The translations under genes and the position numbers were made by a program. Below the pieces are notes generated by a model. It worked only from the letters and a program-made list of their open reading frames with translations. It did not search any database and had not been told where the DNA came from. A stretch of 61,590 nucleotides of DNA from a virus. Position 1 is the stretch's first letter; each line of letters starts with the position of its first letter. The stretch covers positions 1 through 61,590 of the IMG/VR virus record IMGVR_UViG_3300032053_000072; one strand, written 5' to 3'. Of this stretch, positions 5,537 to 24,484 are shown in pieces.

Positions 5537-5548
5537 TTCATCGTCCTC

Positions 5549-5881
5549 CTAGATATCCGTGCAGACCATCACAACTTTGCTTGCTGAGTTGTAGTAGATC
5601 GCCCCCTCCGCATCAATCAACGACGCCAGTGCCGGCGTCAACACAAGCCCACGCAAAAGTATTGGCTCAGCAGTTGCTTCCCATCTAGCGCTAACCGCAT
5701 TGTAGCGAATGAAGTCACCAGTAGTTGTACCGGTATAGAGGATGCCTCCATGGGAACTGTCGCTGTGATTATGCACCGTCACGGCGGCACCGCTGCCCGA
5801 TGGCTTTGCCGCCTGCACGGCGACGAGAGGGGCCACTTCCTCTTGGTAGTCCTGCGAATGCGTCAGATCGCGTTTCGGCAT
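5549..5881 (-). CDS. Small tail-tip / fibre protein
   Basis: 110 aa with HNHSDSSHGG around residues 37-46, a pattern common in phage fibre and tip proteins. The C-terminal EGAIYYNSASKVVMVC resembles the short beta-hairpin ending of many fibre-associated proteins. It directly follows the tail-tip gene. Precise role unknown. Confidence 0.55.
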   Translation of the reverse strand: MPKRDLTHSQDYQEEVAPLVAVQAAKPSGSGAAVTVHNHSDSSHGGILYTGTTTGDFIRYNAVSARWEATAEPILLRGLVLTPALASLIDAEGAIYYNSASKVVMVCTDI

Positions 5882-5884
5882 TGT

Positions 5885-7348
5885 CTATGCCTCGAAGTCC
5901 TCATACGCGGTCAGCAACGTGTCGGCCCCATCATCTGCCACGCTGTAGGCGTCGCCATGGGCCAGCCAGTTGAGCGCTTTCAGCTCGAAGACCTGCGGCC
6001 CGCCCGCCGGGTCGGTATCGGCCAGGGTGCAGGAGTAGAGCGGCGCCCCATCGTCTCCGAGCGCGAGCGAGGCGATCCGTCCCGCCCCCCGCCAGCGCAG
6101 ATAGGGGTAGATATGTGTGATCACCCAGCGGCGACCGAGCAGCTCGGCCAATCCGACCCCATCCCGAGCGCCTTGATCGTGCCCGTGATACGTTGCGAAC
6201 TCGTGCTCGTACCAGCATGGGGATGCCTTGAGTACCGCCGGCTTCATCGCCTCCAGGTCGTCAGCGATCTCATCTATCGAGCCGTCTCCCGTGGCCGGCG
6301 TCTGATCGCCATACACGAACTCGCCTAGCGCGGTTGTGCGCGTCACACCCGCCAGATCGTTGAGATAGATGCGTGCCACGTCGGCAACCGGTTTCGTGCT
6401 CGGTCCATTCAAGCGCCCGATCTCGATGCAGTAACGCGTGCCGACCGTGTAGGCAGAGAGATCGGCGTCTAGCACCTGGGCTGCGTTGGTGACATACCTG
6501 GCCAATTCTGCCAGGCGCGCCCCGGGCGCCTTGTGTGGGTATTGCTCGTCATCAAGGTAGACAATAATGTTGCTGTCGGCGTCGCAGAGAGAGGTCGTCA
6601 TCTCCAGGTGTAGGTTCTGTGCCCCTCCTAGCCGGAACGTCCAGCGGAAAAGGCATTGCTCGTCATCATTACCCGGTTGGCCATGGCTTCCGATTCCGCT
6701 CTCACTGCCCAGCCACGGCCGCTCGTTGCACTCCTTGAGATACATTGCCGCCGTGCGGAGCATATTGAACTCGGCAGCCGTATGCGGCGTTGCCGTCGTC
6801 CAGGCGGGCCACGTCGGCCAAGTGAGGAACCCCGTCGTCCCCGTGAGCAGGGCGCGATAGATAAAGGCGCTGGTCACACCGCTGACGCCGTCACCATTGG
6901 TGATCAGTCGCGCCCGCACGACGTCGCCAGTGGCGTAGTTGTAGGGTCCGCCGCTGATCGAGAAACTGATTACGCCTGCTGTGTCTTCGACATCGTCAAA
7001 CCAGTGTGCGCCGGCACTGGTGTCCGTCTTGTTGCCGCCAACGTCATTCCAAGCACCCGCGTAGTAGAGTTGGAGTTTCGCATAGGCAGCGAGAGCAGGA
7101 TTGGGCAAGTCCACCCAGGCACTAAACTCGAAGGTCGGGTGCGCCGTCTGGTAGACCGTCTCCCCTTCCCAGCAGGTCTTCACCCCCTGGCCTGGAGGCG
7201 CGTACCACGACTGCGACTGCAGGCCGAGTAGCCCATGAGACATTCCGTAGGCTCCATCCGCATCGCGGGCGATGGCGTTCAACCACGAGCGCCCGCCGAG
7301 CATCATCCCCGTGGCTAACTCGACTACGGGCTGCCAACTTTCGTGCAT
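5885..7348 (-). CDS. Minor tail (tail-tip) protein
   Basis: 487 aa. I start it at the ATG overlapping the previous stop (TGATG) and not at an upstream in-frame codon that would overlap the large tail gene by 118 bases. Beta-rich and tryptophan-rich in the middle (WPTWPAWTTATPHTAAEFNML, near 185-205). The C-terminal part is acidic. No named family recognised; position after the hub gene and before fibres suggests a tip component. Confidence 0.6.
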   Translation of the reverse strand: MHESWQPVVELATGMMLGGRSWLNAIARDADGAYGMSHGLLGLQSQSWYAPPGQGVKTCWEGETVYQTAHPTFEFSAWVDLPNPALAAYAKLQLYYAGAWNDVGGNKTDTSAGAHWFDDVEDTAGVISFSISGGPYNYATGDVVRARLITNGDGVSGVTSAFIYRALLTGTTGFLTWPTWPAWTTATPHTAAEFNMLRTAAMYLKECNERPWLGSESGIGSHGQPGNDDEQCLFRWTFRLGGAQNLHLEMTTSLCDADSNIIVYLDDEQYPHKAPGARLAELARYVTNAAQVLDADLSAYTVGTRYCIEIGRLNGPSTKPVADVARIYLNDLAGVTRTTALGEFVYGDQTPATGDGSIDEIADDLEAMKPAVLKASPCWYEHEFATYHGHDQGARDGVGLAELLGRRWVITHIYPYLRWRGAGRIASLALGDDGAPLYSCTLADTDPAGGPQVFELKALNWLAHGDAYSVADDGADTLLTAYEDFEA

Positions 7349-10300
7349 CAGAAACCTAGTCTCCCGTAACTGAGTCTGCTCGTCCCCACCTTGAATGCCC
7401 CCGCCGTTGTGCCCGTGCTCACCGTGGCATACTGGTACAACTCGTCTTGCGGTATCGCCAGCCACGTCTCCTCATAGCGTAAGGCGTAACTGCCCTGGCG
7501 GTGCAGCAGGATCACCAGTTTGTTGATCTGCGAGATGCCGGCCGCGATGTTGACCGTGATCGCACTGCCCACATTCAGCTCCGGATTGCCGGGCAGGGGC
7601 CCCACTGTCAGCAGGACGGGTGGGTCTTGCAGGCGGTAGGCTTTCAGTTCCGCGACCAGCGCCGCCTGCGCCTCGTGCTGCAGGCAGGCGCGCGCCTTCA
7701 CCTCGTTGGGCTTAACGTCGGTGCGCCGGTGCACGACCAGATAGTTTTTGTCCGCCTTATACTCGCGGTTGGGCAGTCCCTCGATAGGCCGCCCCAGCAC
7801 GTCAAATTTGCGGATCACCATGCCATGATTCGCGCTGGCATTGGCGAACTTCACCCGGCTGCTCACCGCACCTTCCGGCACCCAGGGCGTGCTGTCGTCG
7901 GCATTGCTGACCGTCAACTCCACACCCTCAGTGAAGCCGACGCCGCCGCTCGTGGTGGCCACCACCTCATAACTGTCGTACTCGGCTATCGGGTAGTGGA
8001 AGCGGATCGTCAGCGTCTTGGTGCAGAGCGGTGCTATGAGAATCGGAGTACCCAGTTGGTGCAGGTTCATCAGCCGCCCGGTGCGCCGTGGCTGGTAGGT
8101 GACGTTCACGACATCAAACGCCTGCCGGTAATCATGCCGCGGTCTGACGTTCTCTAGGAGAGTGCGGGTGTATGTGGCCTCACTCGCTGCCCCGATCCAC
8201 TTGGCCCAGGCCCAGAACTCCAGGTTGCCCGTCTTAGGATTGACCCAGACGATACCCGCCTCGCTCTCGGCGATCTCGCGCATCTCCGCCAGCCCATCGT
8301 CGGCGTCAGCATAGTGATAGGGTACCACCGTGTAGCCGCGATCGAGCGATGTCCCCGTGAAAGCAATGTCCGTCGCCACATCCGCGATCAACTCGTCCGT
8401 GCGATGGTCGGTCTGTGTCAGCGTCTCCGGGCGCTGCTGCTGAATGTCGAAGTCGTACCCCTGGCAACTCAGCGTCGCCGTGGCGCTGGCCTCGTCCTCC
8501 TGCACGTCCTGCACTCGTCCAAGAAACACGACCGCCCGCTGTGGCGTGCCGCCGGAATCGTAATAGCCGGGCGAGAAGCGGATCGGCGTCTGGAAGATTC
8601 CGTTCACTTGCGCTTGGCTGCCCGTGCGGTCCACCGAGAATCGCCCGTCGCTGTTGTCCATGCGCAGACTCATCTGCGCCACCGGCCCCTCGCCTAACTG
8701 GCTGAGACTGCCGCCCGGCGAGATGATGCCGTAGGAGTAGTTGACGCCCAGAAAAGCATTGCTCGTTTCTTCCGTCCAGGTGCCGTTGCGCGGCCAGTCC
8801 ATCTCGATGATGGCTGTCTGCAGTGCGAATGGCTCCTGACTTAGTTGACTGAGTGTCCGTGAATCCGAATACGCAAAGATGTTGTCGATGTCAAAGAACA
8901 CGACATTGGTTTCATTGATCGTATAGTCGCTGGGGCTCGACCAGGTAATGCTCAACTGGCCCCAGTCAAGCCAGTACCACTGCCACGACATGTACTCGTA
9001 ATAGACGGGGTCGCTGTGATAGTAGTCGGAGATGAAGTCGTGCGGTCTTGCTATCGTGTGTGAGCCGATGGTCGCCCCGTCCAAGTAGTACTCGAGAGTG
9101 TCGTTTACTATGTCCGCAACCACCTTGAACGTTCGCCATGCGCCGGTGCGCGCGAATGAAATAGCCGCGCCAGTGCTCAAGCAAGGCAACCCCTCGTCCA
9201 CGTAGAATGAATCAGAGGTACCATCATAGGCCAGACGGAATAGGTATGTGGCTGGACTGTAGGAGTTGCCGTTGCCGTCTATCTCGGCGTCTATGTAGTA
9301 AGAAGGGCAACCCTCCAAGTAGCATTTTGCGATGGCCTGATCGTCACCTGGATCACCTGCTGACTCAACACGGAAATCGAACGAAAAGGTTTCTATGGCA
9401 CCCGTCTGCAATGACTTATCAACATACGCTGGAATCGGCCCCTCAAAGTAAATGTTATGTCCGTTGATGTCCGTGAAGTTCATGTAGTGATTGTCGCCTT
9501 CTGTGAGCAGAGGCGAAGGCCAACAACCGTCCCACAAATTGTCGCCTACACACCAACAGAACTTACGAGGATACCTCCAGGAAGAAGTGGAATCCTCCAA
9601 GTCCTCCTGGAACGCCCACCCCTTTTCATAGGTGAACTCCAAATCGTCTATGTCATAGACGATTGACATCTCCCACAGCATCACCTCCCACTCGTAGTAC
9701 GGCGTCAGAGGGAAGTAAAAGCTGAAGTGCCCCAGATAAACCTGCTCACCGCCAACCCAAACCTCTCTCATGCCAGTCCGAGCATCGAACTTGAACTCAA
9801 ACTTAGTCCAATCGTCCGGACGTGGTACATAAATAGTGACCCAATCGTCCTCATGCTCAGGGTCAGCCGAATCACGCTCGTCGAACTCGAACTCAACCAT
9901 GTCAGGGTAGTCAGGATCATCCGCGCCAGTGAGGTAGACAGCCTCACTTACGACGTACTCATCCCACATGAAGCTGTCCCACCCAGTAGCAAGTGGCTCT
10001 GGAATGCGCAGGTAGAAGGACAAAGACCACACCATCGGGTAGAACGGTATCATTAACTCCATGTCGGCATTGCCGGTGATCGGGAACTGGACATACCAGT
10101 CCCCACTATGCGCCGTGGGGTCATTCACGAATTGAATGTCGTGCTCGAAGTATTGCTGAACCCAACCATCTTCCCAGGCCGTGCCTTGACTCCACTGCGC
10201 GTGAATCGCATCTATCCCGCCCTCGAAGTCCGTGCTGAGGTTGATATCCTCGAGTACACCCGGCGTGAAGTACTCCGAGCCGTCCGGCACAAGCCACACG

Positions 10301-10923
10301 CAGACGCCGCAGTTGTCATCGGATGCAGACATTGTCAACGTCAATGGTGTCTGCGCACCGGTCGTTCCTTGGGCAGATTCATAAGCGGCCGTAATGCAGA
10401 CATCATTCGCGCCCGTGTTGGTGCCGCGGTCGTACATGTGAAACCGATAACCTGGTGGCAGGAATGTATTGTTGCCATTACCTGCACCAAACAGAACATA
10501 CGAAGTGTGTCTGATGGTGCGTGTTCCGGCTGGGGCTGTAACATAGACCGAATGGCCACCACCACTCTGAGCTGTATGGATGTGGATCGGAGTTGCCTGA
10601 TCAGCACCCTGCATGACAACGATTGCACCAGCGACCGGCCTTGCCGTGCTCAGTGTCCACGTATAAGTCACGCTGCCGGAAATGTCTGCACTCGTGGCAA
10701 TCCGATACGAAACGTTCATGCCGACATTCAACACGGCTGGCACTTCGTCGTGAACCAGAGTCCAGCCACTTGGCAATGTGACTGTGTCGCCGGTCTGACG
10801 CTGAGCTGATATCGACGCCAGCAGCAAGTCGCCCGCACGACAGACAGGCACTGTCAATGCATGGGTTGCGGACGACGCTCCTACGTAGCTAAGCCAGTTT
10901 CTGGCGCCCGCGGCCACCGCCAC
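7348..10923 (-). CDS. Large tail-tip / hub protein with carbohydrate-binding-like inserts
   Basis: 1191 aa, modular. Residues 1-220 form a beta-sandwich type often seen in large surface proteins (WTLVHDEVPAV, MQGADQATP). Residues about 220-700 look like two or three concanavalin-like jelly rolls rich in Trp, Tyr and Asp. Residues about 740-1190 resemble the tail-hub region of siphoviruses (RMDNSDGRFSV, FLGRVQDVQEDEASATATLSCQG). It follows the tape-measure block, as hub proteins do. The start is a GTG overlapping the preceding gene and is uncertain. Host-surface glycan binding is inferred for the jelly rolls. Confidence 0.7.
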   Translation of the reverse strand: MAVAAGARNWLSYVGASSATHALTVPVCRAGDLLLASISAQRQTGDTVTLPSGWTLVHDEVPAVLNVGMNVSYRIATSADISGSVTYTWTLSTARPVAGAIVVMQGADQATPIHIHTAQSGGGHSVYVTAPAGTRTIRHTSYVLFGAGNGNNTFLPPGYRFHMYDRGTNTGANDVCITAAYESAQGTTGAQTPLTLTMSASDDNCGVCVWLVPDGSEYFTPGVLEDINLSTDFEGGIDAIHAQWSQGTAWEDGWVQQYFEHDIQFVNDPTAHSGDWYVQFPITGNADMELMIPFYPMVWSLSFYLRIPEPLATGWDSFMWDEYVVSEAVYLTGADDPDYPDMVEFEFDERDSADPEHEDDWVTIYVPRPDDWTKFEFKFDARTGMREVWVGGEQVYLGHFSFYFPLTPYYEWEVMLWEMSIVYDIDDLEFTYEKGWAFQEDLEDSTSSWRYPRKFCWCVGDNLWDGCWPSPLLTEGDNHYMNFTDINGHNIYFEGPIPAYVDKSLQTGAIETFSFDFRVESAGDPGDDQAIAKCYLEGCPSYYIDAEIDGNGNSYSPATYLFRLAYDGTSDSFYVDEGLPCLSTGAAISFARTGAWRTFKVVADIVNDTLEYYLDGATIGSHTIARPHDFISDYYHSDPVYYEYMSWQWYWLDWGQLSITWSSPSDYTINETNVVFFDIDNIFAYSDSRTLSQLSQEPFALQTAIIEMDWPRNGTWTEETSNAFLGVNYSYGIISPGGSLSQLGEGPVAQMSLRMDNSDGRFSVDRTGSQAQVNGIFQTPIRFSPGYYDSGGTPQRAVVFLGRVQDVQEDEASATATLSCQGYDFDIQQQRPETLTQTDHRTDELIADVATDIAFTGTSLDRGYTVVPYHYADADDGLAEMREIAESEAGIVWVNPKTGNLEFWAWAKWIGAASEATYTRTLLENVRPRHDYRQAFDVVNVTYQPRRTGRLMNLHQLGTPILIAPLCTKTLTIRFHYPIAEYDSYEVVATTSGGVGFTEGVELTVSNADDSTPWVPEGAVSSRVKFANASANHGMVIRKFDVLGRPIEGLPNREYKADKNYLVVHRRTDVKPNEVKARACLQHEAQAALVAELKAYRLQDPPVLLTVGPLPGNPELNVGSAITVNIAAGISQINKLVILLHRQGSYALRYEETWLAIPQDELYQYATVSTGTTAGAFKVGTSRLSYGRLGF

Positions 10924-11224
10924 CTCTACCCGTATTGGGCCTGAGTTTCACTATTGCCAACTCGGCAATCCTCGGCGAGTTAGTTAGGCCACGCTCCTTC
11001 GGAAGGTTGTCTAGTGCAAGGAGTTCCTTCAGCGCTTCATCGTCTCGCAATATCTGTCCTGCTAGGCGTTTGGGGTGCTCCACGCCGCGCTCGACTAGTA
11101 GAGTGAACAGGGCTGCTAGCGTAGTAGGATTTGGGCGTCTGCCCTCGGCCAATGCCTTCAGCGCCCGCCGTTTGTGGTCGCCACTCAATTCCCTGGGTAC
11201 CTTGCTCCTTACGATAATTGCCAT
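10889..11224 (-). CDS. Hypothetical tail-region protein
   Basis: 111 aa, basic and helical, ending in a Gly/Arg-rich tail (GRGGGGRGRQ). Unknown family. It lies between tape measure and hub genes; the Arg/Gly tail might bind nucleic acid. The tail-encoding part overlaps the start of the hub gene. Confidence 0.5.
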   Translation of the reverse strand: MAIIVRSKVPRELSGDHKRRALKALAEGRRPNPTTLAALFTLLVERGVEHPKRLAGQILRDDEALKELLALDNLPKERGLTNSPRIAELAIVKLRPNTGRGGGGRGRQKLA

Positions 11225-11225
11225 G

Positions 11226-11567
11226 CTATGCCGTCGTCTCCTCGAGCGTGGCGGTCACCCGGAATGTCGCATCGTCTATGAGGACGCCCTTGCTCCAGGC
11301 CGTTACCATCATCGTCTCCGTGTTGCCGAGGTGGTCGATCACGGTCTTGGCCACATAGTAAGCAGCCCGCAGCGCCAGTATCAGATTGGTATGGTTAGCA
11401 CCGGAGCAGTCCCAGGCGTAGTCACCGCCCAGCCCCTCTCCCAGCCGGTGGGCGCCCTTCGAGCCGTCGAGGAACTGCCACTTCTCGCCAACCACCAGGC
11501 CCTTGATGCTGTAGCCACCCTCTACTGGGTCGGGAAGGCCCGAATAGGCACCTATCGTCATGCTCAT
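11226..11567 (-). CDS. Distal tail-type small protein
   Basis: 113 aa, beta-rich (YSIKGLVVGEKWQFLDGS, CSGANHTNLILALRAAYY). The start overlaps the tape-measure stop (ATGA). Its place directly after the tape measure is that of distal-tail proteins, but no family signature is visible. Confidence 0.55.
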   Translation of the reverse strand: MSMTIGAYSGLPDPVEGGYSIKGLVVGEKWQFLDGSKGAHRLGEGLGGDYAWDCSGANHTNLILALRAAYYVAKTVIDHLGNTETMMVTAWSKGVLIDDATFRVTATLEETTA

Positions 11568-13813
11568 GGCGATGCTCCCGGCATCGGGATGCCGAAGTAC
11601 CCGTGCACTACACTAATGATCACATCCCGCACCGTGTTGTTGAATGTCGTGCCGGGGGTCTTTAGCGCTGTGCCGAACCCGGTAACGAGTACCGCGCCGG
11701 CGTCTTTGCCGGCCTTGCCCCAGTCCTGGTCTAGTAACGTCTCCCGGAATGTGCCCGCGAAGTCGATGGCGCCCATAGTGCCTGCCCCCGCGAAGTCGAA
11801 GGCGGCCATGACCTCCGGGTTCTCCGGCCCCAGGCCCGCTGCCGCCAACTGCTCAGCACCTATGCCCATGATGCCCTGCCAGTTGAGTTTGCTGGTCATC
11901 TGCTCGTCAAAGGCGGTGACAAAGGCATCCCAATCTATCGCCTCGGGTCGCATACCCATCCCGAACTCGCGCATGAAGTTCAAGCCGAAACCTTGCGCCT
12001 GCTCGACACTTAGTCCCGGCGGCATCCCCGTTTCTGCCATGAACTCAGGGAACCACGGCTGGCGCATCGTGTTGGCCGTGTCGCGCGCCAGTGCCTCGGC
12101 CCGATCATAGTTCTCCTTCCACGTGTCCCGGTGCATCCCCATCTGGTCTTCGAGCGCGGTCAGGTCGGCACCGGGTGGCTGGAGGATGCCAGAGATGGCC
12201 GACTGGTAGTCGGACATGTAGCCTTCCATGTCCTTCAGGGCGTCTTTGTAGGCGCTAGCGCCACCACTCGCGGCCCGCTGCGCCTCACTGATCTGCCAGT
12301 CGGCCAGCCGTTTGCTGTAGTCATACAGAGTCTCATTGACGCGCCTCACCGGTTCCGATGAGCCGGCCACGATCTCGGCTATCTGGTAGGCCGTGTCCCT
12401 CTGAAGATCAACTATCTTGCGTTGCTCCAACAGTTCGTATTGATACTGGGTGTACACGCCAGGTGCGGGCATCTGGAGCTTGGCCAATGCACTTGCAGCC
12501 GGCCCGTGGTAGCCTGGCGCGGCGGGGCCACCCAGCATCTCTATCTGCTGTTGGATGTGCAGGCGCAGGTAGACGTCCTTATCGCTGAGGCCGGCGAGTC
12601 GGACTTGCAGCGCGGCTATCTCCGCGGCTGCCCTCTCTGCCGCGGAGCCTACTCCCTGCTCCATACCCATGAGCCGCTGGCTGGTAGTAATCATGGCCTG
12701 CTGTTCTTGTACTGTATCTTGTGTCTCCATCCACAGTTTCCGCAGGGCAAGGGCCGCTGGCAGTGACACTTGTTCCAACCGTCTTGCCGCCTGGTTCATC
12801 TGATCCATACTCATAGTCGCTAGCGGCAAGTAACGGCCCAAGTCCTCAATGTCTGCTGTCCATATCTCGAAGCCAGGGCCACCTGGCACTATCATCTGCC
12901 GCAATGATTCGGCCAAGAGACCAAACCCGGCGGATAACTTGGTGTACGGAGCGCCAGTCGCCATGTCTTCCATCATCCGGCCAATACCGAATAAGCGGTC
13001 TTCGTACTGTCTCATGCCTGGGATGTTCATAACGATCATATTGGCCAGTGAATTGGCTACCTTGTCTAGGGTTGGCGCCGCCGCTATCTGTAGATATTCT
13101 GTCAGGTCTTCCATGACCACCCGTAGCCGCATGATGCCGCCACCGGCCATGTCCGTCCCCGATTCCCAGTCGCCGAATCTCTTGGTAGCTTGATCTTGCA
13201 CTGCTATCCAGATGGCCATCGAACGCTCACCTTGAGTCAACTCATTGGCCACCTTGCCGATACTAACAGCGTACGACTCCATCGCCGCCGTCTGGTCTAT
13301 GACGATCCCGACCTGCATAAGCGAGCGGGCGTAGCCACGGGCTACACCTGTGCTGATCGCCGTCGTCAGGCTTTCAATGTCCCCCATGCCCCTGGCGGAG
13401 GCAGCTACGGCGATCTGGATCATCTTCGGATACTCGGCGGCTAACTCCGCACCGGCCATCACCAGCGTCTTGTTGAACTGCCGCGTCATGTTGTCCAGGT
13501 CGGCCATGCCCTGGGTCGCCTCAGCCATCTGCTGCTTTATCGTATCGCCTGACAGGCCAGCTTGCTGAGTCAGTAGTTGGAAGCCGTTCTCGATGCGGAT
13601 GAGCTCGGCGCCGGCCGCGCCAAAGTCGAACACCTTGTCTATGGCAACGCCGATGCCGGCTATCGCCCCAACGACACCGGCGACGCCAAACAAGCTCGTA
13701 ACGTTGCTGGTGAAGCCACGAATCTGCCCTTCAGCGTCCTTGAGGCCGGACTGTAGGCCGCGCACATCGGCGCCGACGGTGCACAGGAGTTGGGCTACCT
13801 CACCCGCGGCCAC
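11564..13813 (-). CDS. Tail tape-measure protein
   Basis: 749 aa, long and mostly helical. It opens with the usual start of tape measures (GADVRGLQSGLKDAEGQIRG). A glycine/alanine-rich hydrophobic segment follows at about 40-70, and another helical stretch with MGDIESLTTAISTGVARG typical of phage tape measures. Using the common rule of 1.5 A per residue it would set a tail of about 110 nm. It follows the tail-assembly chaperone pair, overlapping its extension by 14 bases, and precedes tail-tip genes. Confidence 0.85.
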   Translation of the reverse strand: MAAGEVAQLLCTVGADVRGLQSGLKDAEGQIRGFTSNVTSLFGVAGVVGAIAGIGVAIDKVFDFGAAGAELIRIENGFQLLTQQAGLSGDTIKQQMAEATQGMADLDNMTRQFNKTLVMAGAELAAEYPKMIQIAVAASARGMGDIESLTTAISTGVARGYARSLMQVGIVIDQTAAMESYAVSIGKVANELTQGERSMAIWIAVQDQATKRFGDWESGTDMAGGGIMRLRVVMEDLTEYLQIAAAPTLDKVANSLANMIVMNIPGMRQYEDRLFGIGRMMEDMATGAPYTKLSAGFGLLAESLRQMIVPGGPGFEIWTADIEDLGRYLPLATMSMDQMNQAARRLEQVSLPAALALRKLWMETQDTVQEQQAMITTSQRLMGMEQGVGSAAERAAAEIAALQVRLAGLSDKDVYLRLHIQQQIEMLGGPAAPGYHGPAASALAKLQMPAPGVYTQYQYELLEQRKIVDLQRDTAYQIAEIVAGSSEPVRRVNETLYDYSKRLADWQISEAQRAASGGASAYKDALKDMEGYMSDYQSAISGILQPPGADLTALEDQMGMHRDTWKENYDRAEALARDTANTMRQPWFPEFMAETGMPPGLSVEQAQGFGLNFMREFGMGMRPEAIDWDAFVTAFDEQMTSKLNWQGIMGIGAEQLAAAGLGPENPEVMAAFDFAGAGTMGAIDFAGTFRETLLDQDWGKAGKDAGAVLVTGFGTALKTPGTTFNNTVRDVIISVVHGYFGIPMPGASP

Positions 13814-14027
13814 GCCTGCCTCCTGATTTGACTTGACTCATTGCCTTCCTCTTAGCACCTTCCTGCCTTTGCCTGCCTTCCCGATAGCGCAGGAAGCCGT
13901 GCCAGCTCACGAACTCCGGCATGGGCATCTCCGCTTCCAGGCGGGCGACTGTCGTATGCAGGTTCTCCGCTAGCTGGTACAAGTTATACAGCGCGGGGTC
14001 ACTTGCGAAACCGCTTCTCCGCGTCGT
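13800..14027 (-). CDS. Frameshifted extension of tail assembly chaperone (GT-like)
   Basis: An open frame without a good start of its own begins just after a TAG at 14028-14030 and overlaps the end of the first chaperone gene. It encodes about 65 aa after the shift (SDPALYNLYQLAENL ... MPEFVSWHGFLRYREG), which has the look of the second chaperone domain. It is reached by a +1 (or -2) shift: the zero-frame codons CGG TTT CGC AAG TGA include TTTC, where Phe-tRNA can slip from TTT to TTC. A TTG at 13982 could also start it independently. In siphoviruses such fusion products bind the tape measure. Confidence 0.55.
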   Translation of the reverse strand, partial: TTRRSGFASDPALYNLYQLAENLHTTVARLEAEMPMPEFVSWHGFLRYREGRQRQEGAKRKAMSQVKSGGRRGRG

Positions 14028-14804: not shown

Positions 14805-15524
14805 TTAGTTGCGCATCCAGCCGACGAAGAAGGTCGCCGCCTTGCCCGGCGTAATCGTCCAGGTGACTCTGATATACTGACCAACGTCGCCAGTCGCCGA
14901 CTTTTTCTCGCTGGTTGGACCTGTAACATGCGTGACATTCGTAAATGCTACTAACTGCACCCAGGTTGCGTTATCATCGCAATGCTCGATCTTACAAGTC
15001 AGCGTCGCTGCAGCAGCGGATATAGCGGTGCACTCAAGATAGGCTTGGTAGCCAGAGTGGCTGTCCGCACTATTGTTAACAGAAGCTGTGCTGCTGTCGG
15101 TCGTGCGCTCCGTCAGCGGGTGGAGAACGATGCCCCTGTCCGTGTCCGTGCTGGACATGGCCTGCACCGGCATCTTTACAGCGTCGTCGCCGGCATCGGC
15201 GCCCTCACTCGCCAGCATCACTTTGCCCAGGTAGGCGGTATTGCCGGCAGTATCACCGTCCGGCAAGAAGGCGAAACAGCCGTCGATGATAGCCGCTGGG
15301 CTGATCATGTTCCAGACTTTACCCTCTGCATCCGTGTCGTACACACCTGCCAGGGTCAGGCTCACGTCGCGCAGTCCGGCCACGCGCTGCACAGCGGTGG
15401 CTTCCAGCACCCTGATCTCCGCCAACGCCCGACTCGCCTCGAACGTCGCCTCCTCCACATACGGGCTCATGTTCTGATTGTGGACGTACACCCTTGCACT
15501 AATGCCGTGCCGGAAAGCCATCAT
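14805..15524 (-). CDS. Major tail tube protein, long paralogue with extra domain
   Basis: 239 aa. Residues 1-125 are paralogous to the 125-aa tube gene that follows. Residues about 135-239 form an added beta-sandwich (YLECTAISAAAATLTCKIEH, YIRVTWTITPGKAATFFVGW) that also resembles the 140-aa protein at 17140-17562. Such add-on domains often decorate tail tubes. The start overlaps the previous stop (ATGATG). Confidence 0.65.
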   Translation of the reverse strand: MMAFRHGISARVYVHNQNMSPYVEEATFEASRALAEIRVLEATAVQRVAGLRDVSLTLAGVYDTDAEGKVWNMISPAAIIDGCFAFLPDGDTAGNTAYLGKVMLASEGADAGDDAVKMPVQAMSSTDTDRGIVLHPLTERTTDSSTASVNNSADSHSGYQAYLECTAISAAAATLTCKIEHCDDNATWVQLVAFTNVTHVTGPTSEKKSATGDVGQYIRVTWTITPGKAATFFVGWMRN

Positions 15525-16712: not shown

Positions 16713-17135
16713 CTATTCCTCATCGTCTGCCGCGGCCGTAACTGGGTTGTCATACATGCCCTTCTTGAATGATGGCTGAATCAGGTCGGTGTCTTCCTCG
16801 TAAGTTTCCCACTCGGCCTCGCTCAGACCAGCCGCCCATGGTGCGACGGCAGCAGATGCCTGAGCTCGCAGGGCAATGGCCCGTTTGCGGTAGTTCTCCG
16901 CCTGTTGGCTGAAGGACACTGAAAGCCCGTCTATGCTCTTGTCCACCCGCCGGGCCAACTTGGCAGCGATGGCCTCGCAGGCCGCCGCCGCTGCACTGAT
17001 TATGCCAGCTTCTATTGTCTGCAGGTACGTGAGCTCGCCGTCTTGGAGCAACTGGTCATTCGTGTCCGTGTCACCAGAGAGGAAGCGAATCTTGTCCCTC
17101 GCAAGGGTAAAGTCGGCGCTGTAGGTCCAAACCAT
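16713..17135 (-). CDS. Head-tail connector (gp6-like adaptor)
   Basis: 140 aa, helical. The opening TYSADFTLARDKIRFLSGDT and a middle helix of alternating Ala and Lys resemble the DNA-packaging adaptor family. The ATG at 17135 lies 5 bases after the previous stop. It begins the neck block. Confidence 0.7.
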   Translation of the reverse strand: MVWTYSADFTLARDKIRFLSGDTDTNDQLLQDGELTYLQTIEAGIISAAAAACEAIAAKLARRVDKSIDGLSVSFSQQAENYRKRAIALRAQASAAVAPWAAGLSEAEWETYEEDTDLIQPSFKKGMYDNPVTAAADDEE

Positions 17136-17139
17136 CAGA

Positions 17140-17562
17140 TCATCCCGTTGCCTGCATCCCCACGCTGAAGGTGAATGTCTGTCCATGTGCGCCGCCATCG
17201 GTAATCAGCCACTTCACGCGCACATCCGGCCCATGCGGCCCCTGGATAACGCCCGCGGCCATCGTCGCGTCTGTGGGCGCACCCTGTGATGTGGTAGGAG
17301 CAGCACTCCTGACCCAGTGAGCCAAGTACTTCTTCACCGGCAAGCTGCCCAGCACCTGAGTAAACCTGCACAGGTCGTTCCAAGTGCTTCCCACATCCAC
17401 TGACGACTGCACGAAAACGTCCAGTAGATCGCCAGCCACAGCCCCGCCAGTTGTCACGTTCAGCATGAAGATGGCCGAATCCGCCCTGGCGAACTCCGGC
17501 AGGTCTAATGCAGCAGTAGCGCTACTTGCCGTTCTCAGTCCTGATGCCAGTATCGTTCTCAT
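17140..17562 (-). CDS. Beta-sandwich virion protein of unknown role
   Basis: 140 aa. Strand pattern and motifs (SSVDVGSTWNDLCRF, VRVKWLITDGG, FTFSVGMQATG) parallel the C-terminal domain of the long tail-tube protein at 14805-15524, suggesting the same decoration fold as a free-standing protein. Lies between the glycosyltransferases and the neck genes. Confidence 0.55.
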   Translation of the reverse strand: MRTILASGLRTASSATAALDLPEFARADSAIFMLNVTTGGAVAGDLLDVFVQSSVDVGSTWNDLCRFTQVLGSLPVKKYLAHWVRSAAPTTSQGAPTDATMAAGVIQGPHGPDVRVKWLITDGGAHGQTFTFSVGMQATG

Positions 17563-17571
17563 CGAGTCCTC

Positions 17572-18318
17572 CTAGAAGCTCCGCAACCGTTCCTCAAAAA
17601 TCATCCCACCAGCGGAAATGCTGACCGGCTTTTCTTTCGCCATGTCCGCCTTCGCCTTTTCGTATGTCGCCCTGGTGATCTTCTGTTCTCCGCAGTGCGG
17701 AGACTCCAGGCCGAAATCGCAGAAATGCGGGATGCCGCTCCTGTAGCACGAAAGGCCAAAGTAGATGTCTTCGCCCGGCTGCGTGTCGAAGGCTGGGTTG
17801 TAGACCAGCCGGAACCAGGGCCAGACGAGCTTACTCTCCTGCAACTTGGTGAACACCCATCGTTGAATCGCAATCGCCCCAGTCCCAACCATAGTGCACT
17901 GCACCAGGCCAGCGGACGCGGGCAGGCTGCTAATGTCCATATTGGTGAAGCCGTCCTCTACCTTGACGAAGACGCAGGGATCGTATGGGTGGCTGCGGCG
18001 GAAACACAGAGCCCCAACCACGCCAACGTTGTGCACTACCAGCCGCTCGATGATGTCACATGGGTGATCGTGGTCGGCATCAAGCATTACCAGCGTGTCC
18101 TTCGGGTTGCGACTGTATTCCATGAACAGGCGGCTGATCTTGTTCCTGGCGTCGTCAGTTCGTGTCGGATCTATCGACAGGTGCCGGTAGTCGCGGATGC
18201 CCGAACGGATGGCCACCGATAGGAAGTTATTGAACGCGGAGCCGCTGCCAGCGCCAGTACGCTCCGGTAAAGCGGCCCACCAGACTGTCTTACCGGCATC
18301 ACCGACGACGGCATTCAT
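17572..18318 (-). CDS. Glycosyltransferase (GT-A type)
   Basis: 248 aa. The ATG at 18318 overlaps the stop of the fused enzyme upstream (ATGA). DTLVMLDADHDHP near residue 80 is a DxD metal/nucleotide-sugar motif, preceded by an N-terminal Rossmann-like part, with GEDIYFGLSCYRSG further on, like the acceptor-side ED motif of GT-A enzymes. It should transfer a sugar from a nucleotide donor in the cytoplasm. Lodged in the structural operon next to another sugar-modifying enzyme, it probably decorates virion proteins, or host surface glycans in a lysogen. Confidence 0.7.
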   Translation of the reverse strand: MNAVVGDAGKTVWWAALPERTGAGSGSAFNNFLSVAIRSGIRDYRHLSIDPTRTDDARNKISRLFMEYSRNPKDTLVMLDADHDHPCDIIERLVVHNVGVVGALCFRRSHPYDPCVFVKVEDGFTNMDISSLPASAGLVQCTMVGTGAIAIQRWVFTKLQESKLVWPWFRLVYNPAFDTQPGEDIYFGLSCYRSGIPHFCDFGLESPHCGEQKITRATYEKAKADMAKEKPVSISAGGMIFEERLRSF

Positions 18319-20300
18319 GCGGCCGTACACAGCGGCAGGTGTATCCGCTCGTCGTTCCTGGCCAACTTCAGACTGTAAGCGTCGGTAAGCGACCCATCGG
18401 TAGAGATGCCCCACTTCTGACTAAACAACTGCCAGTTCTTCTCCATGCTGGCTTTGAAGTCAATGCCCAACCGCTCGAATGTGGCTTGGCCGACGTGGTG
18501 AATGAAGACGTCCTGGGCCACGGCACAGTGCCAGCCAGCCGCGGCGGCACGGATACAGTAGTCGTCATCGTCATAGTTCCCCAGACCGTACCTGGTATCC
18601 AGGGCCCCGACCGCATCTAGCACCTGCCGTCGCATCAAGAGGCAAAACCCGACCAGGCGCGGATAGGCTGTCACCTGGCCGGCGTGATCGGCAGCCCAGG
18701 CGTCCGCGAAGGCATCGAAGGATGCAGCATCCTTATAGGCGGCGGCCGTTTGCTGAGGACCACTAACGTTGTTGCTCATTGGCCCGACCAGGCCGACTTT
18801 CCCATGGCGACGCAACACGCTTATCATCCGCCCTAACCAGCCGCGCGATACAACTGTATCGTCATTGAGGATGCAGACGTATTTGCCGCTCGTGTTCCTG
18901 AGTCCCAGGTTCGTACCAACGGCAAACCCCCAATTTTCCGGGCAAGACAAGTGCACGATCTTCCCGTCCTCGGCCAACTTGCCGAGCCAGGCCGTCATCA
19001 ATTCGCCGCTACCGTTGTTCACCACATACACCTGGTGTCGCTCAGGTGTGTTGTTTGCAATGCTGTGCAGGCATGACTCGAGTTGCTCGCGGCCGTCCTT
19101 TGTGAGAATGACGATATCAGTCAGCGGCTCCTCACACTGCCGCAGCAGCCTGGCCGGCACACCCACCACCGTGGCACATCGAGGCACGTCGTGTGTTACG
19201 ACGGACCCAGCCCCGATTATGGCGTCGTCGCCGATCTTCACGCCTGGCAGGATGACGACGCCCTCGCCAATGAATACGTGATTGCCGATCTCCACCGAAC
19301 GGACAGTCAGCGCTTGCCCATGCAACTCACGCATTACGTCATACCCATGCTGGTGATCGGCAATCGTCACGTGCCCGGCGATGATGCAGTCCCTGCCAAT
19401 GCTGACCCTTTGGGCACAGCCAATGTGCAGGAACAACTCGGCGGATGTGCGCTCGCCGATAGTCAGCAGCGGTTCGTACTTCACTCCAGCGTACTCTGTG
19501 ATGCACTCAATCCGAGCCCCAAAGCCAATCACAGACTGCGCCCCAAGCTCGAAGCACTGCGGATTCGTCAGCATCAAAGGCTGGATGATCCTACACCCCT
19601 GACCCATGCGCTTGAGTTTCGGGCCGCTCGCGCTGGCCCTTTTTTCCTCATCGGCGGTATTGCCCAAGAAGGTCTTGATCCGGGTCAAGATCATCTTCCT
19701 GTGGTCGTCGGTCGCATACTTGAAAGCGAAAAAGGCGTGGAAGCCCTCATAGTGAAAATTCTGCAAGACCATCGTGTCGTAACCCAGCGCCTTGAACTCA
19801 TCCGGCGTCCAACGACTGCGGTGGTCGTGCAGCTCGCGCTGCCCATGCGGGTGAAGCGCCAAACCTTGCTCGCGGAAAATCTTGAACTTCTCCGTCGCAA
19901 TAAGGTCGTCCGTTTCCCAGGGCACCAACAGGATGATCTCGCGGTCGGCTATCTTCTCGACTTCTTGCAGCAGCCTCAGTGAGTCCTCTTTCGGAAGGTG
20001 CTCAATCACGTCGAAGATCGTCACTGTATCCCAAGTACGGTTCCCTGCTGCCGCCTCTGGCACGAACTCGCGGAGATCCCGCTCGTGTACCTCGGCGAAA
20101 CCCTGCTCCCGCAACTTCACCACCGACGGAGCGAACAACTCGACGCAGGTAATCCTCTCATGGGGGAAACCTCTCAGCGTCCGCCCGTCGTTGCTCCCCA
20201 AGTCGAGATGCTTCCCGCTGTCCAACGCATAGAACAACGCTTGCAAGCTCAGCGGATTCTGTGCTTGCTCAAGGGCTGCCTTGCGTTCGTTCCAGAACAT
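18315..20300 (-). CDS. Triple fusion: methyltransferase, hexapeptide acyltransferase, GT2 glycosyltransferase
   Basis: 661 aa. (1) Residues about 25-215: SAM methyltransferase with motif I HLDLGSNDGRTL and DVIEHLPKE. (2) About 235-392: left-handed beta-helix O-acyltransferase with isoleucine-glycine hexapeptide turns (VSIGRDCIIAGHVTIADH, VEIGNHVFIGEG, GAGSVVTHDVP, VVGVPARLL). (3) About 397-650: GT2 glycosyltransferase (DIVILTKDGREQLESCL, CILNDDTVVSRGWL with the donor-binding NDD). All three steps modify sugars. The gene is in frame throughout and starts at the ATG that overlaps the upstream stop. An unusual fusion for a phage head operon; virion glycan synthesis is inferred. Confidence 0.8.
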   Translation of the reverse strand: MFWNERKAALEQAQNPLSLQALFYALDSGKHLDLGSNDGRTLRGFPHERITCVELFAPSVVKLREQGFAEVHERDLREFVPEAAAGNRTWDTVTIFDVIEHLPKEDSLRLLQEVEKIADREIILLVPWETDDLIATEKFKIFREQGLALHPHGQRELHDHRSRWTPDEFKALGYDTMVLQNFHYEGFHAFFAFKYATDDHRKMILTRIKTFLGNTADEEKRASASGPKLKRMGQGCRIIQPLMLTNPQCFELGAQSVIGFGARIECITEYAGVKYEPLLTIGERTSAELFLHIGCAQRVSIGRDCIIAGHVTIADHQHGYDVMRELHGQALTVRSVEIGNHVFIGEGVVILPGVKIGDDAIIGAGSVVTHDVPRCATVVGVPARLLRQCEEPLTDIVILTKDGREQLESCLHSIANNTPERHQVYVVNNGSGELMTAWLGKLAEDGKIVHLSCPENWGFAVGTNLGLRNTSGKYVCILNDDTVVSRGWLGRMISVLRRHGKVGLVGPMSNNVSGPQQTAAAYKDAASFDAFADAWAADHAGQVTAYPRLVGFCLLMRRQVLDAVGALDTRYGLGNYDDDDYCIRAAAAGWHCAVAQDVFIHHVGQATFERLGIDFKASMEKNWQLFSQKWGISTDGSLTDAYSLKLARNDERIHLPLCTAA

Positions 20301-21022
20301 CAGGAGACCTCTGGCAGTGCCGGCGGCACTGGTGTGCAGATGGCGGACAGCGGTCGCACTTCTTCAACATCCTCGGCACACACCAGCCGGAGGTATATGG
20401 TTGTCGCTTCCTGTGAATGCTCGATGGCAGGTGCTTGGGTGAACTCTTGGTCGCTGTGACCGGAAAGGCCAGTGATACCAGGCGAGAGCTCTGGGGTAGC
20501 CGAGCGGGCTACAGCGGAACTACAAGTCACGGACATGTCACAGGCGGCTGGTGCCACTGTGGTGGGAGCACTGTTTGTGTAGATCCAGGATGGTTGGTGC
20601 CAGGGTAGACAAGGCATTGGTGAGGACCGTACCGGCCACGGCTCCCATGGCCACCAGTCGTAATGGAAATGGTGAACGTGCTGAGTCACGACTATCGGCC
20701 TGAGCCCCGGTTTGAACGTGACCGCGATGAGCCCTGACTGGGAACCCTTGCTGCCACCGGCCTTGCTCGCCTCAGCGCTGCCCAACTTGTAGAACGTGAA
20801 GTGGCCATCATCATTGGCGGGTCGCTCTACCTCAATGGACGAATGCGGCTCGACGCGCCACGTGCCCACGTGCGTTCCATCCACCTCCACCCGCGCATCA
20901 CAGCACACGCTCTGATCATTGCGGAGGCGGATGGAGTAGGTCTGGGCATGGCGCATACGCACGTACCCGCCGGCCACCTCCAATCCGCCTACAACTCTTA
21001 CTGAGAACTGATTCACGTACAT
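20300..21022 (-). CDS. Hypothetical virion-associated protein
   Basis: 240 aa. Residues 1-110 are beta-rich with FTFYKLGSAEASKAGG and SGLIAVTFKPG. A His/Trp/Pro-rich stretch follows (HHFHYDWWPWEPWPV, about 116-130), then a Ser/Thr/Ala-rich, probably disordered C-terminus. The low-complexity Ser/Thr tail would be a natural glycosylation target of the neighbouring enzymes (inference). Family not recognised. Confidence 0.55.
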   Translation of the reverse strand: MYVNQFSVRVVGGLEVAGGYVRMRHAQTYSIRLRNDQSVCCDARVEVDGTHVGTWRVEPHSSIEVERPANDDGHFTFYKLGSAEASKAGGSKGSQSGLIAVTFKPGLRPIVVTQHVHHFHYDWWPWEPWPVRSSPMPCLPWHQPSWIYTNSAPTTVAPAACDMSVTCSSAVARSATPELSPGITGLSGHSDQEFTQAPAIEHSQEATTIYLRLVCAEDVEEVRPLSAICTPVPPALPEVS

Positions 21023-21067
21023 GCAAGTCTCCTTGTGGTTGGAGTCTGTAAACTCATCGGATAGCCG

Positions 21068-23113
21068 CTACGATAGGGCTGCCCCCGCCTCTAGCGGCGC
21101 GTAATGCAAAGTCCACTTGATCTGGCCCGTCTCGGTTTGGTTGGCAACCAACATCTGGAACGCACCAGGCGGTAGGATGAACGGAGCGCCGGCGGCAGTC
21201 GCCGTAGCGACAACGCCAGCCGCGGAGATCACACCGGGGTTGGCGAATGTGCCAGTAATGGTAAACGTGCTGTTGACGGCCGCCGAAGCGATATCCACAT
21301 TGGCACAGACGTCCACCGTGCCCCCTGTGGTGGCGATATGCTGGAGCTTGGCATTGCAGACAGCGTTAGATGAGGCAACTGTCCACTCGCCAAACAAGTC
21401 CTTCACCAAGACGTGCCCACCGGCTACGGTGGCGATTGCCAGGGCTCCAGTACTCGGTATTACCTGCGCGGCCTTGAGGAAGGCGATACCTCGATCAACG
21501 CGAGTGACTGCGGTCGCGTCGAAGGTTGCAGCATCAAAAGCGGCGTCGGCAATCTTGGCGGCTGTGATTGCATCAGTGTTGATATTGAGGGCACTGAGCG
21601 CATAGTCGCCGATCTTCGCCGAGGTAATGGCCGCCGTGTCGATCTTGACTGCGGTGAGTGCATAGGTGGCAATGACGGCAGCGCCAATGGCGTAATCGGC
21701 GAATGCCCCGAGATCAATGGCGTCGTCACCTATAGCTGCCGCATCGATGGCTCCAGCAGCGAACGTAGCAGAAGTAATAGCCCCTGTGTCTATCGCAGCA
21801 GCATTGATCGCATCGGCTGCAAAGGTTGCGGCGTCAATAGCACTGTTGGCGATGGCGGCCGCATCAATTGCACCTGCCGCGAACGTAGCAGAAGTGATAG
21901 CCCCAGTATCTATCGCGGCGGCGGCGATGGCGTCAGCGGCAAACTTGGCGGCTGTGAGAGCCCCAGTAGCGATAGTGACCGCGCCAATGGCATAGTCGGC
22001 GAACGCACCTAGGTCGATGGCATCATCGGCGATTGCAGCAGCGTCAATGGCGCCGGCAGCGAAGGTCGCCGAGGTGATAGCACCCGTGTCGATGGCAGCA
22101 GCGTCGATGGCATCTGCTGAGAAGGTTGTCGCTGAGATGGAGCCGGCGGGGAACGGGCCAGCGGCGGTGCGCGGTGAATCCACGCCCGCCTGGTCAATAG
22201 CATCGGTCTCCTTGTTGTTGTTACACTTGAGCGACCCTGGGTCAAAGATCGTGCCCAACGTGGTGCCATACATCATGTTGCCGACAGCGTTGCCCGTGCA
22301 GGCGCTGGCGATCTCGATGGCGTGATTGCCGGCGTTGACGTTGGAGACGATGTTGTCGATCAATTGCAGGTCGGTCAGAACCTTGCCCGCCGGGTTGTGG
22401 ATGCCTGCATCTGCCCAGTCGCCCTGGACGATGTTGTCACGAAGGACAACGAAGCTGGCCACCTCGCCCAACTCGATACCGGCGTTGCCGCCAGAGGCGG
22501 ACTGGAAGATTTTGCAGCCGATCACACCGCTGCGATCTACAGCGTTGGCACCGGAGCCGGTCAGATCCACACCTACGAGGAACTGCTTGGCGCTGCCCTC
22601 GCGCAACTCGCATCCGATTAGGAGATCATCCGCGGCATTGATGTCCACGACGATCTTCTGGTTGTCAATGTTGTTGGCAAGGAGCACGTTGTAGACGCGG
22701 CAGCTAGCCGCGCTGAAGTTGTACTCCGCATCCACGTGTGTGAAGGTGAACGTAGGCCGGCTGGCACCCACGCCCAACCCGATTACAGTCACGCCAGCCA
22801 CGTCCATGTCGGGCGATAGTGCCGCTGACGAGATCGTCTCGGCGTGCCCTTCGGCCAGGACCACCACATCACCGTTGCCGGCAGTGGTCTTCGCCATAGC
22901 CGCATTGATGGTGGCCATAGGGCGGTCGGGACTCTTGCCGGTGTTGTTGTCGCTGGTATTCGTATGGCCATTGTCTACGTGGTAGACCTGGCCCTTCACC
23001 CACCACCACGGGTCGCCGGCACCAAGCACCGGCATCCCCATCGAATACAATCCGCCGCGCGCATCAATCGCGCCCCGGCCAACGAACTTCCGTCTTGCTA
23101 CGTCAGTACCCAT
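21068..23113 (-). CDS. Beta-helix protein with long Ala/Ile repeat, head-fibre candidate
   Basis: 681 aa. Residues about 45-310 look like a right-handed parallel beta-helix (repeated short strands such as VTVIGLGVG, RVYNVLLANNID, VIGCKIFQSASGG, FVVLRDNIVQGD). Residues about 315-530 consist of some 30 imperfect 5-10-residue repeats of the type AIDTGAITSATFAAG and AIDAAAIADDAIDLG. A beta-rich C-terminal domain follows. Both repeat types form long thin fibres. It lies between the capsid gene block and the connector genes, not with the tail fibres, so it may project from the head. Confidence 0.65.
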   Translation of the reverse strand: MGTDVARRKFVGRGAIDARGGLYSMGMPVLGAGDPWWWVKGQVYHVDNGHTNTSDNNTGKSPDRPMATINAAMAKTTAGNGDVVVLAEGHAETISSAALSPDMDVAGVTVIGLGVGASRPTFTFTHVDAEYNFSAASCRVYNVLLANNIDNQKIVVDINAADDLLIGCELREGSAKQFLVGVDLTGSGANAVDRSGVIGCKIFQSASGGNAGIELGEVASFVVLRDNIVQGDWADAGIHNPAGKVLTDLQLIDNIVSNVNAGNHAIEIASACTGNAVGNMMYGTTLGTIFDPGSLKCNNNKETDAIDQAGVDSPRTAAGPFPAGSISATTFSADAIDAAAIDTGAITSATFAAGAIDAAAIADDAIDLGAFADYAIGAVTIATGALTAAKFAADAIAAAAIDTGAITSATFAAGAIDAAAIANSAIDAATFAADAINAAAIDTGAITSATFAAGAIDAAAIGDDAIDLGAFADYAIGAAVIATYALTAVKIDTAAITSAKIGDYALSALNINTDAITAAKIADAAFDAATFDATAVTRVDRGIAFLKAAQVIPSTGALAIATVAGGHVLVKDLFGEWTVASSNAVCNAKLQHIATTGGTVDVCANVDIASAAVNSTFTITGTFANPGVISAAGVVATATAAGAPFILPPGAFQMLVANQTETGQIKWTLHYAPLEAGAALS
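21600..22140. repeat. Internal DNA repeats encoding the Ala/Ile repeat tract
   Basis: The coding tract holds repeated blocks of about 90-120 bp, for example gcaccggcagcgaacgtagc-like units recurring around 21750, 21865 and 22050, with variants of gcatcgatggc and gtgatagccccagt between them. Such repeats allow length change by recombination. Copy number may also be mis-assembled from short reads. Confidence 0.6.
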
Positions 23114-23527: not shown

Positions 23528-24484
23528 CTAGGCGACAGCGCCCGATACGAACAGGCCGGCGCTGGCGCTGACGGCTTTCATGTCGAAGTAGCTGTTCGAC
23601 TCGATAATATCCACCTCTCGCTCTTCGTCTCTCATCCGCTTGATCCACTGCAACGCACCCGCAACCCGGCGCCAGACGAAACAGTAGCCGGCCGCGGGCG
23701 TGAGCAGACTAGGACGGGCGGGCACGGCCAGCATCAGCCCGTGCTTGCCCCAGATGCGGCTGTAGCTCACGGAGGCCTCAGCGGTCCCCTCAGCCGTCGT
23801 GGTCACGAGCGACCTGCCAATGAGCACCTTCTCGAACTCCGCGAGAGAAGCGAACAGGTCAGCGCTCATCACCCCCTTTTGCGTGTACTTGATGGTGTCG
23901 ATCAGGTCGGGGTGCCACTTCAACTGCAACCAGACCTGCTTGCCCAAGACCAAGACGTTCGGCTCCACGCCGATCAGGGCCTCGACCGTATCGCGGTAGG
24001 TGGTCAGATCGACAAGCGGCGTCGAGCCGGCGTAGTCGGACCAGACTGTGAAGTCGGTGCCGCCGGTCTTGGTCGTCGTCCAAGGGGTCGTGATGAAGAA
24101 GTCGGTCGCGAACGCGCGTTCGCGTCGCATCAGGAGCTTGTCGGTCACGAACTCGGTGGCATCGCGGTCGAGGTTGAACGGAGCATCGGCGTTGCCACGC
24201 TCCTCGTCGGATACTTCCTTGCGATAGGAATAGCGATCGCAGAAGTATTTCATCGTTACGTCCACGGTCCAGCCGCCACCCTGGGACTTGGTGCCCGGGG
24301 CGCGCAAGCGGGCCTCATCGCGGAACCAGTGGCTTTGATCGTACTGCGGGATGATGTCAGACTGGCGCATCACCTCGACAATCGGGAACACCTGGTCAGC
24401 GATGTAGGCCGGGTTCTTGTACGCGATAGACAGGTTGGTCAACAGCGAATCTACGTGGAGATCACTTGCCGTAGGGGTAGGCAT
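23528..24484 (-). CDS. Major capsid protein
   Basis: 318 aa. Placement after scaffold and decoration genes, length, and pattern fit an HK97-fold major capsid protein. Features include an N-terminal arm with YKNPAYIADQVFPIVEV, then a spine-helix region rich in Arg/Glu (DKLLMRRERAFATDFF). A mid-protein segment (NVLVLGKQVWLQLKWHPDLI) resembles phage coat proteins, and IWGKHGLMLAVP follows. A GGAGGAAT ribosome site precedes the ATG. Confidence 0.8.
   Translation of the reverse strand: MPTPTASDLHVDSLLTNLSIAYKNPAYIADQVFPIVEVMRQSDIIPQYDQSHWFRDEARLRAPGTKSQGGGWTVDVTMKYFCDRYSYRKEVSDEERGNADAPFNLDRDATEFVTDKLLMRRERAFATDFFITTPWTTTKTGGTDFTVWSDYAGSTPLVDLTTYRDTVEALIGVEPNVLVLGKQVWLQLKWHPDLIDTIKYTQKGVMSADLFASLAEFEKVLIGRSLVTTTAEGTAEASVSYSRIWGKHGLMLAVPARPSLLTPAAGYCFVWRRVAGALQWIKRMRDEEREVDIIESNSYFDMKAVSASAGLFVSGAVA

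Follow-up and report, generated by a model that had tools for sequence, protein, structure and literature searches.

Gene content of the module

The window, the whole of a linear IMG/VR virus record (IMGVR_UViG_3300032053_000072; 61,590 nucleotides), carries its head and tail genes on the minus strand. Its candidate virion-glycosylation module encodes a 681-amino-acid (aa) fibre-like protein, a 240-aa protein, a 661-aa fusion enzyme, a 248-aa glycosyltransferase (GT) and a 140-aa protein, which fill a slot of about 6 kb (Table 1). The initial annotation had placed the enzyme genes between a head-fibre candidate and the neck genes. This position was borne out: the fibre-like gene on one side has PHROG tail-fibre and virion-structural matches, and the genes on the other side lead to the major tail protein, "neck" being a label given by position. 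The ATGA coupling of the second GT was likewise found, the stop of the fusion and the start of the 248-aa open reading frame (ORF) overlapping by four bases at 18315-18318. A second overlap, absent from that annotation, joins the stop of the 240-aa ORF to the start of the fusion by one base (TGATG).

The fusion proved to be a methyltransferase-acyltransferase-GT protein, as had been proposed. Its reading frame is not due to chance, because 200 simulated sequences of 7.5 kb and similar composition contained no stop-free run longer than 428 codons. In Pfam, residues 21-172 matched Methyltransf_23 (a class I methyltransferase), residues 336-370 matched Hexapep (E 8e-14) and residues 396-513 matched Glycos_transf_2 (GT2; E 5e-19). 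The best NCBIfam model was WbbJ (residues 234-389, E 8e-28, under that model's cut-off), of which the acyltransferase domain covers positions 27-184 of 192; LacA was matched over 114 residues. The closest solved chains of this domain were LacA and maltose O-acetyltransferases, and its phage matches include NeuO, the K1 capsule O-acetyltransferase. The fusion contains the motifs LDLGSNDG (at residue 32), DHQHG (315), NDDT (479), GNYDDDD (574) and HHVG (601), which we take to be those expected of the respective domains. The second His of DHQHG aligned with a presumably catalytic His in the maltose acetyltransferase 3srt.

The 248-aa protein alone had no Pfam match at E 0.1, but its family profile and predicted fold both identify it as a putative GT-A glycosyltransferase with complete motifs, in line with the GT assignment made initially. 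Relatives that carry the annotation putative glycosyltransferase occur in two Manatee Spring phages. Residues R58, D80, D82, P111, P167, D184 and H208 are invariant in 32 aligned family members. The best PDB match of the profile was A197 of the archaeal virus STIV (E 1.4e-9 with 24 sequences, 1.8e-9 with 32), followed by Mnn9 (3e-6) and procollagen galactosyltransferase (0.03). An AlphaFold model of the protein (pLDDT 87.8) superimposed on A197 with a Z-score of 17.2 and a root-mean-square deviation of 3.1 over 172 of 191 residues, at a sequence identity of about 15%. In this alignment the DxD motifs coincide and the catalytic Asp151 of A197 pairs with D184. Z-scores were also high for the GT domain of the lysyl hydroxylase LH3 (17.2), mimivirus R699 (14.4), Mnn9 (14.3) and COLGALT1 (14.0).

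Base composition of the module resembles that of its surroundings, which gives no sign of a foreign origin and does not exclude one. Scans for promoters and terminators returned no more matches than in shuffled sequences, and the 140-aa protein had no worthwhile match to the tail protein. A Pfam scan of the window covered 62 of its 83 ORFs and returned 20 families; ten other ORFs were scanned separately and eleven, which were small or on the plus strand, were left out. The following, listed here without positions, were among the 62: four or more genes for DNA methyltransferases, one for a radical SAM/SPASM protein, and one each for proteins resembling PAPS reductase and uracil-DNA glycosylase.

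Table 1. Position of the module, its genes and neighbouring virion genes in the window.
Feature	Coordinates	Strand	Remarks
Whole module	17140..23113	(-)	Fills a slot that holds small ORFs only in near relatives
Fibre-like virion protein, 681 aa, candidate acceptor	21068..23113	(-)	N-terminal part related to capsid-adjacent proteins elsewhere, then a repeat tract
240-aa protein without known relatives	20300..21022	(-)	Stop overlaps fusion start; candidate acceptor or partner
Fusion enzyme, 661 aa	18315..20300	(-)	Predicted methyltransferase (residues ~20-200), left-handed beta-helix acyltransferase (~234-391) and GT2 (~392-635)
Putative A197-like GT-A glycosyltransferase, 248 aa	17572..18318	(-)	ATG start overlaps fusion stop; longer GTG start at 18414 possible
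140-aa protein	17140..17562	(-)	Begins 9 bases past the GT stop; AGGAGG ahead of start; not found in near relatives
Major capsid protein (phrog_1005), context	23528..24484	(-)	
phrog_1732 protein, presumed neck by position, context	16713..17198	(-)	Conserved in relatives
Major tail protein	14805..15524		phrog_9522 match

Distribution of the module and of the glycosyltransferase family

Twelve IMG/VR contigs encode a capsid protein 75-78% identical to that of the window. Ten of them span the complete slot, from a Zn-type gene to the counterpart of the gene at 16713, and in all ten the slot measures 0.46-1.25 kb. Each complete slot holds a 48-60-aa ORF and an ORF of 82-225 aa that is called fibre-like from the appearance of its sequence; L089 and L090, which are identical in the slot, have an extra 117-aa ORF. 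The fibre-like gene, a single ORF in these two contigs, is split into two overlapping frames in L088 (4179-4824). Neither enzyme was found in the 12 records, which are mostly fragments; with no positive record among them, the empty GT search shows little. The capsid protein aligned from residue 1 to residue 317 or 318 of 318 in 11 of the 12; the twelfth is cut.

The GT family itself proved to be widespread. Starting from a three-sequence alignment, we recovered 136 IMG/VR relatives and kept 80 loci, picked by GT sequence alone and including near-duplicates. Gene names follow the annotation of a relative, MW202711, and were transferred by iterated profile search. Of the 80 loci, 42 have the complete order capsid - small ORF - GT - tail tubular A and six, mostly at contig ends, have part of it. 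Other contexts accounted for 32 loci. In 19 of 25 of these, a capsid protein of another type (phrog_1357, identified in L071) is encoded 1.2-2.7 kb upstream of the GT; the other seven of the 32 are six loci of a closer subfamily and L074. At L074 the GT (5428) is flanked by the genes for the large terminase and the portal, and the usual order capsid - small ORF - tail tubular A occurs there without a GT.

A second scan, for the closer subfamily, yielded 18 loci, 13 of them distinct; L009, L011, L103, L106 and L110 were omitted as apparent near-copies on the evidence of match statistics and gene maps. At nine of the 13 (L102, L109, L111, L112, L008, L010, L075, L055 and L108), a member of a protein family measuring 330-337 aa in its complete copies adjoins or nears the GT, at a distance of a few genes in L108. 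By position only, these proteins are presumed to be the major tail protein; they matched no PHROG at 0.01 and no phage record. Eight of the 13 loci have a further glycan-type enzyme, either fused to the GT or within six genes of it: a methyltransferase, a sulfotransferase or a GT from a different family. L010 has a GT2, two methyltransferase ORFs, a sulfotransferase and a second A197-like GT, and L104 has a GT2, an O-methyltransferase and a MUCI70-type GT, followed by one ORF and a GP7-type capsid protein. The other six carry Methyltransf_23 (L111), MptE-like and GT2 domains (L105), a GT4 (L113), a GT2 (L008) or a GT2 fused to the A197-like GT (L107 and L112).

Some of these loci have features of their own. 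In L010 (IMGVR_UViG_3300017989_000416; 5332-13868) the glycan enzyme set is unusually rich and is interleaved with virion genes from the capsid gene to the presumed tape measure gene. The MptE-like and GT2 domains of L105 form one 499-aa protein (7769-9268) upstream of the A197-like GT. L108 (9908-12123) has a papain-like cysteine protease gene flanked by two A197-like GT genes, and a gene upstream is weakly similar to the L010 capsid gene. A family of 375-395-aa proteins without a Pfam match occurs near the GT in two copies in L075 (7508-9819) and in one in L111 (4814-5998); these may be additional glycan enzymes.

Around the closer-subfamily GTs, 6 of 108 ORFs matched GT2 and 3 of 108 matched Methyltransf_23, compared to none of 107 for either family in control head operons, a contrast that is only suggestive because the controls represent mostly one lineage and are centred on the capsid gene. 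The controls were the 12 near relatives plus Ottawa, ValentiniPuff and RDJL2; the ORFs scanned were 108 of the 114 listed around the GTs and 107 of the 145 listed in the controls. Five of the six GT2 matches were located (L008, L104, L105, L107 and L112) and the sixth may itself be an A197-like GT. When 30 records, including the 12 near relatives, were searched with the fusion, the GT2 gene of L010 was the sole match; that of L104 surfaced later and shares 32% identity with the fusion's GT2 domain across 254 aligned columns. One 8-residue pattern of the closer GT subfamily was not found in 84,980 species genomes. In the titles, abstracts and passages of the open-licence literature that we searched, there was no description of an A197-like GT family beside capsid genes.

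Glycosyltransferases of phages can also act on DNA (passages of PMC12619734), and the window contains several DNA methyltransferases. The module might serve DNA hypermodification, with the GTs glycosylating a modified base and the other domains decorating it. The GT2 of L010 weakly matches a TET-associated GT family (E 0.003), a member of which ranked 50th in the viral fold list. We nonetheless consider DNA hypermodification very improbable. The GT clusters with capsid genes, its best structural matches are LH3, A197, R699, Mnn9 and COLGALT1, and no base-hydroxylating or hydroxymethylating family was found in the Pfam scan, which covered 62 of 83 ORFs of a record that may be incomplete.

Function and candidate acceptors

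Enzymes of the kinds found in the fusion also suggest remodelling of the host surface, in which late addition of sugars to a surface glycan, or their O-acetylation, would block superinfection or re-adsorption of progeny. The left-handed beta-helix domain is nearest the WbbJ lipopolysaccharide O-acetyltransferase, NeuO is among its phage matches, and the GT2 domain belongs to a type frequently involved in polysaccharide synthesis. However, neither enzyme has a membrane segment (peak 19-residue hydropathy 1.35), and no integrase, flippase or sugar-nucleotide family was among the 20 Pfam families found in 62 of the 83 ORFs of the window, which together are evidence against serotype conversion. 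The GT family also tracks capsid genes across phage groups, and the enzyme genes overlap a gene lying between the fibre and tail genes. Host-surface remodelling is therefore unlikely in our estimate, though less so than DNA modification.

Glycosylation of a virion protein, whichever protein is the acceptor, is the probable function of the module. Modification with methylated and acylated sugars, as the initial annotation had it, is the best-supported reading, because of the gene position, the translational coupling, the capsid-adjacent GT family, and the absence of membrane segments from the enzymes and of integrase, flippase and sugar-nucleotide families from the Pfam results. We infer the enzyme activities, the sugar and the acceptor alike from sequence. 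In the proposed pathway, the A197-like GT (17572-18318) would attach the first sugar to a side chain in a virion protein; the likeliest recipients are the 681-aa fibre of the module and the 240-aa protein whose gene is coupled to the fusion. The fusion would lengthen the glycan by a further sugar through its GT2 domain, and its methyltransferase and acyltransferase domains would cap this sugar by O-methylation and O-acetylation. The host would provide the sugar nucleotides, along with S-adenosylmethionine and acetyl-CoA, since no sugar-nucleotide family was found among the Pfam matches. Such a coat could shield or tune the exposed fibre, for example by protecting it from proteases or from adsorbing to the wrong surface.

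The N-terminal part of the 681-aa fibre is related to the product of the gene immediately following the capsid gene in MW202647 and to proteins of L010 and L103 that lie one gene further from the capsid. In L010 this 305-aa relative (34% identity over 157 residues) directly precedes a GT of the A197-like family. An IMG/VR pattern scan with the first 330 residues of the fibre found no relatives although L010 and L103 carry one; such scans therefore overlook relatives. The fibre profile had no PDB match, and the protein has one Ala/Val/Gly-rich stretch (19-residue hydropathy 1.71). A structural model of the fibre was poor (pLDDT 47.6) and was not used. Residues 25-75 of the 240-aa protein weakly match designed Ig-like proteins; no relatives of this protein were found in phages or IMG/VR.

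The capsid protein looks alike whether or not the module is present, and for this reason the fibre and 240-aa proteins, which appear to have arrived with the enzymes, are the likelier acceptors. In a variant of virion glycosylation, rather than a separate alternative to it, the main acceptors would be the capsid and tail tube proteins and not the fibre proteins of the module. Both are modified in mycobacteriophages, according to passages of three papers (PMC11600133, PMC12619734, PMC12363180), and many relatives have the GT close to the capsid gene or a presumed tail-tube gene. This variant is rather doubtful, given that module-free relatives have a capsid protein that can be aligned with the window's over its entire length and that a fibre and a 240-aa protein come along with the enzymes.

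Several observations weigh against virion glycosylation. The neighbouring proteins had been put forward as Ser/Thr-rich acceptors, and this was not upheld: the 681-aa and 240-aa proteins contain 13.8% and 16.7% Ser plus Thr, close to the capsid protein (15.7%) and the major tail protein (17.6%). In the 240-aa protein only residues 149-208 reach 30%, a value that the tail protein also attains, and the candidates are thus not notably Ser/Thr-rich. The GT-A fold is common and is no proof of substrate; 657 of 997 chains reached Z >= 8 with the GT model. Foldseek ranked the collagen galactosyltransferase COLGALT1 first (E 1e-8), with CMP-KDO synthetases mixed in, and A197 was not among its best 50 matches. 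WbbJ-type acetyltransferases and GT2 enzymes serve surface polysaccharides too. No relative of the whole fusion was found in IMG/VR or the GTDB genomes, both scanned with short exact peptides that miss distant relatives, and conservation of the order is not shown. The control loci were mostly near relatives of each other and were cut around the capsid gene rather than the GT. Finally, gp108-110 of mycobacteriophage Che8 did not match the window enzymes at E 10, either by phmmer or with the family profile.

On a broader view, the loci may reflect an unrecognised and widespread type of protein glycosylation in tailed phages, in which an A197-like GT beside capsid or tail-tube genes, in several phage groups that differ in their capsid proteins, is combined with exchangeable methyl-, acetyl- and sulfotransferases and further GTs. 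The module of the window would then be a mobile set of fibre and enzymes that comes with an acceptor of its own. We regard this as quite possible, if somewhat short of probable. Virion glycosylation would thereby be a trait of many uncultured phages and not just of a few mycobacteriophages, and an A197-like GT adjoining a capsid gene would serve as a sequence marker for finding them. The link to A197, if real, would make coat glycosylation common to bacterial and archaeal viruses. The module also offers candidate enzymes for methyl and acetyl capping within a single polypeptide, and it suggests that a fibre and the glycan machinery are transferred together as a unit.

Comparison with described systems

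The initial annotation knew of no such system from described phages, but systems of this kind have been reported. Passages that cite Freeman et al. 2023 describe three tandem GTs downstream of an O-methyltransferase in cluster O mycobacteriophages, said to modify the capsid and tail tube (PMC11600133), and call Che8 gp110 and Corndog gp38 essential for capsid glycosylation (PMC12363180). In phage Wildflower, the order is portal - O-methyltransferase - GT - GT - GT - protease - small ORF - capsid, an arrangement which suggests that this phage belongs to cluster O, although its record gives no cluster. Che8 gp108 is a fusion of GT2 with a TylF-type methyltransferase according to Pfam. As in the window, the GTs of these phages are encoded together with a methyltransferase, and those of Wildflower lie within the head operon. 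In contrast, no acyltransferase is present in the four genes of Wildflower (by annotation) or the three of Che8 (by Pfam), and the Che8 genes are near the right genome end whereas the window module follows the capsid gene and has fibre genes of its own.

Comparable enzymes have been described outside the phages. A197 is essential to STIV, whose coat protein is glycosylated; passages of PMC10551542 state that A197 may be responsible and that its donor and acceptor are unidentified. Like the window GT, A197 has a GT-A fold, a DxD motif and a catalytic Asp, and it is thought to modify a capsid protein. Unlike the window enzymes, A197 as described there has no additional domain and hence no fused methyl- or acyltransferase. 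A064R of the chlorella virus PBCV-1 has two GT domains and a methyltransferase and builds and methylates the capsid glycan (passages of PMC7019647). It resembles the fusion in joining GT and methyltransferase in one viral protein. It differs in belonging to a eukaryotic virus and in having two GTs, with no acyltransferase named in those passages, while the fusion has one GT, one methyltransferase and one acyltransferase.

The middle domain of the fusion shares hexapeptide repeats and the aligned His with the WbbJ/LacA O-acetyltransferases, but is fused between a methyltransferase and a GT2. Gtr-type O-antigen conversion uses a membrane GT and a flippase; by hydropathy the two enzymes of the module have no membrane segment, and no flippase family turned up in the Pfam scan of 62 of the 83 ORFs. 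Since the mycobacteriophage and PBCV-1 systems have been described, virion glycosylation as a kind is already known, and of the initial proposal the virion-glycan pathway stands as the best-supported reading while its undescribed nature does not. The open-licence titles, abstracts and passages searched contained no description of a phage methyltransferase-acyltransferase-GT fusion. As far as our searches reach, four things are new relative to the known systems: the combination of enzymes, the inclusion of an acyltransferase domain, a unit that contains a fibre of its own, and how broadly the A197-like family is distributed.

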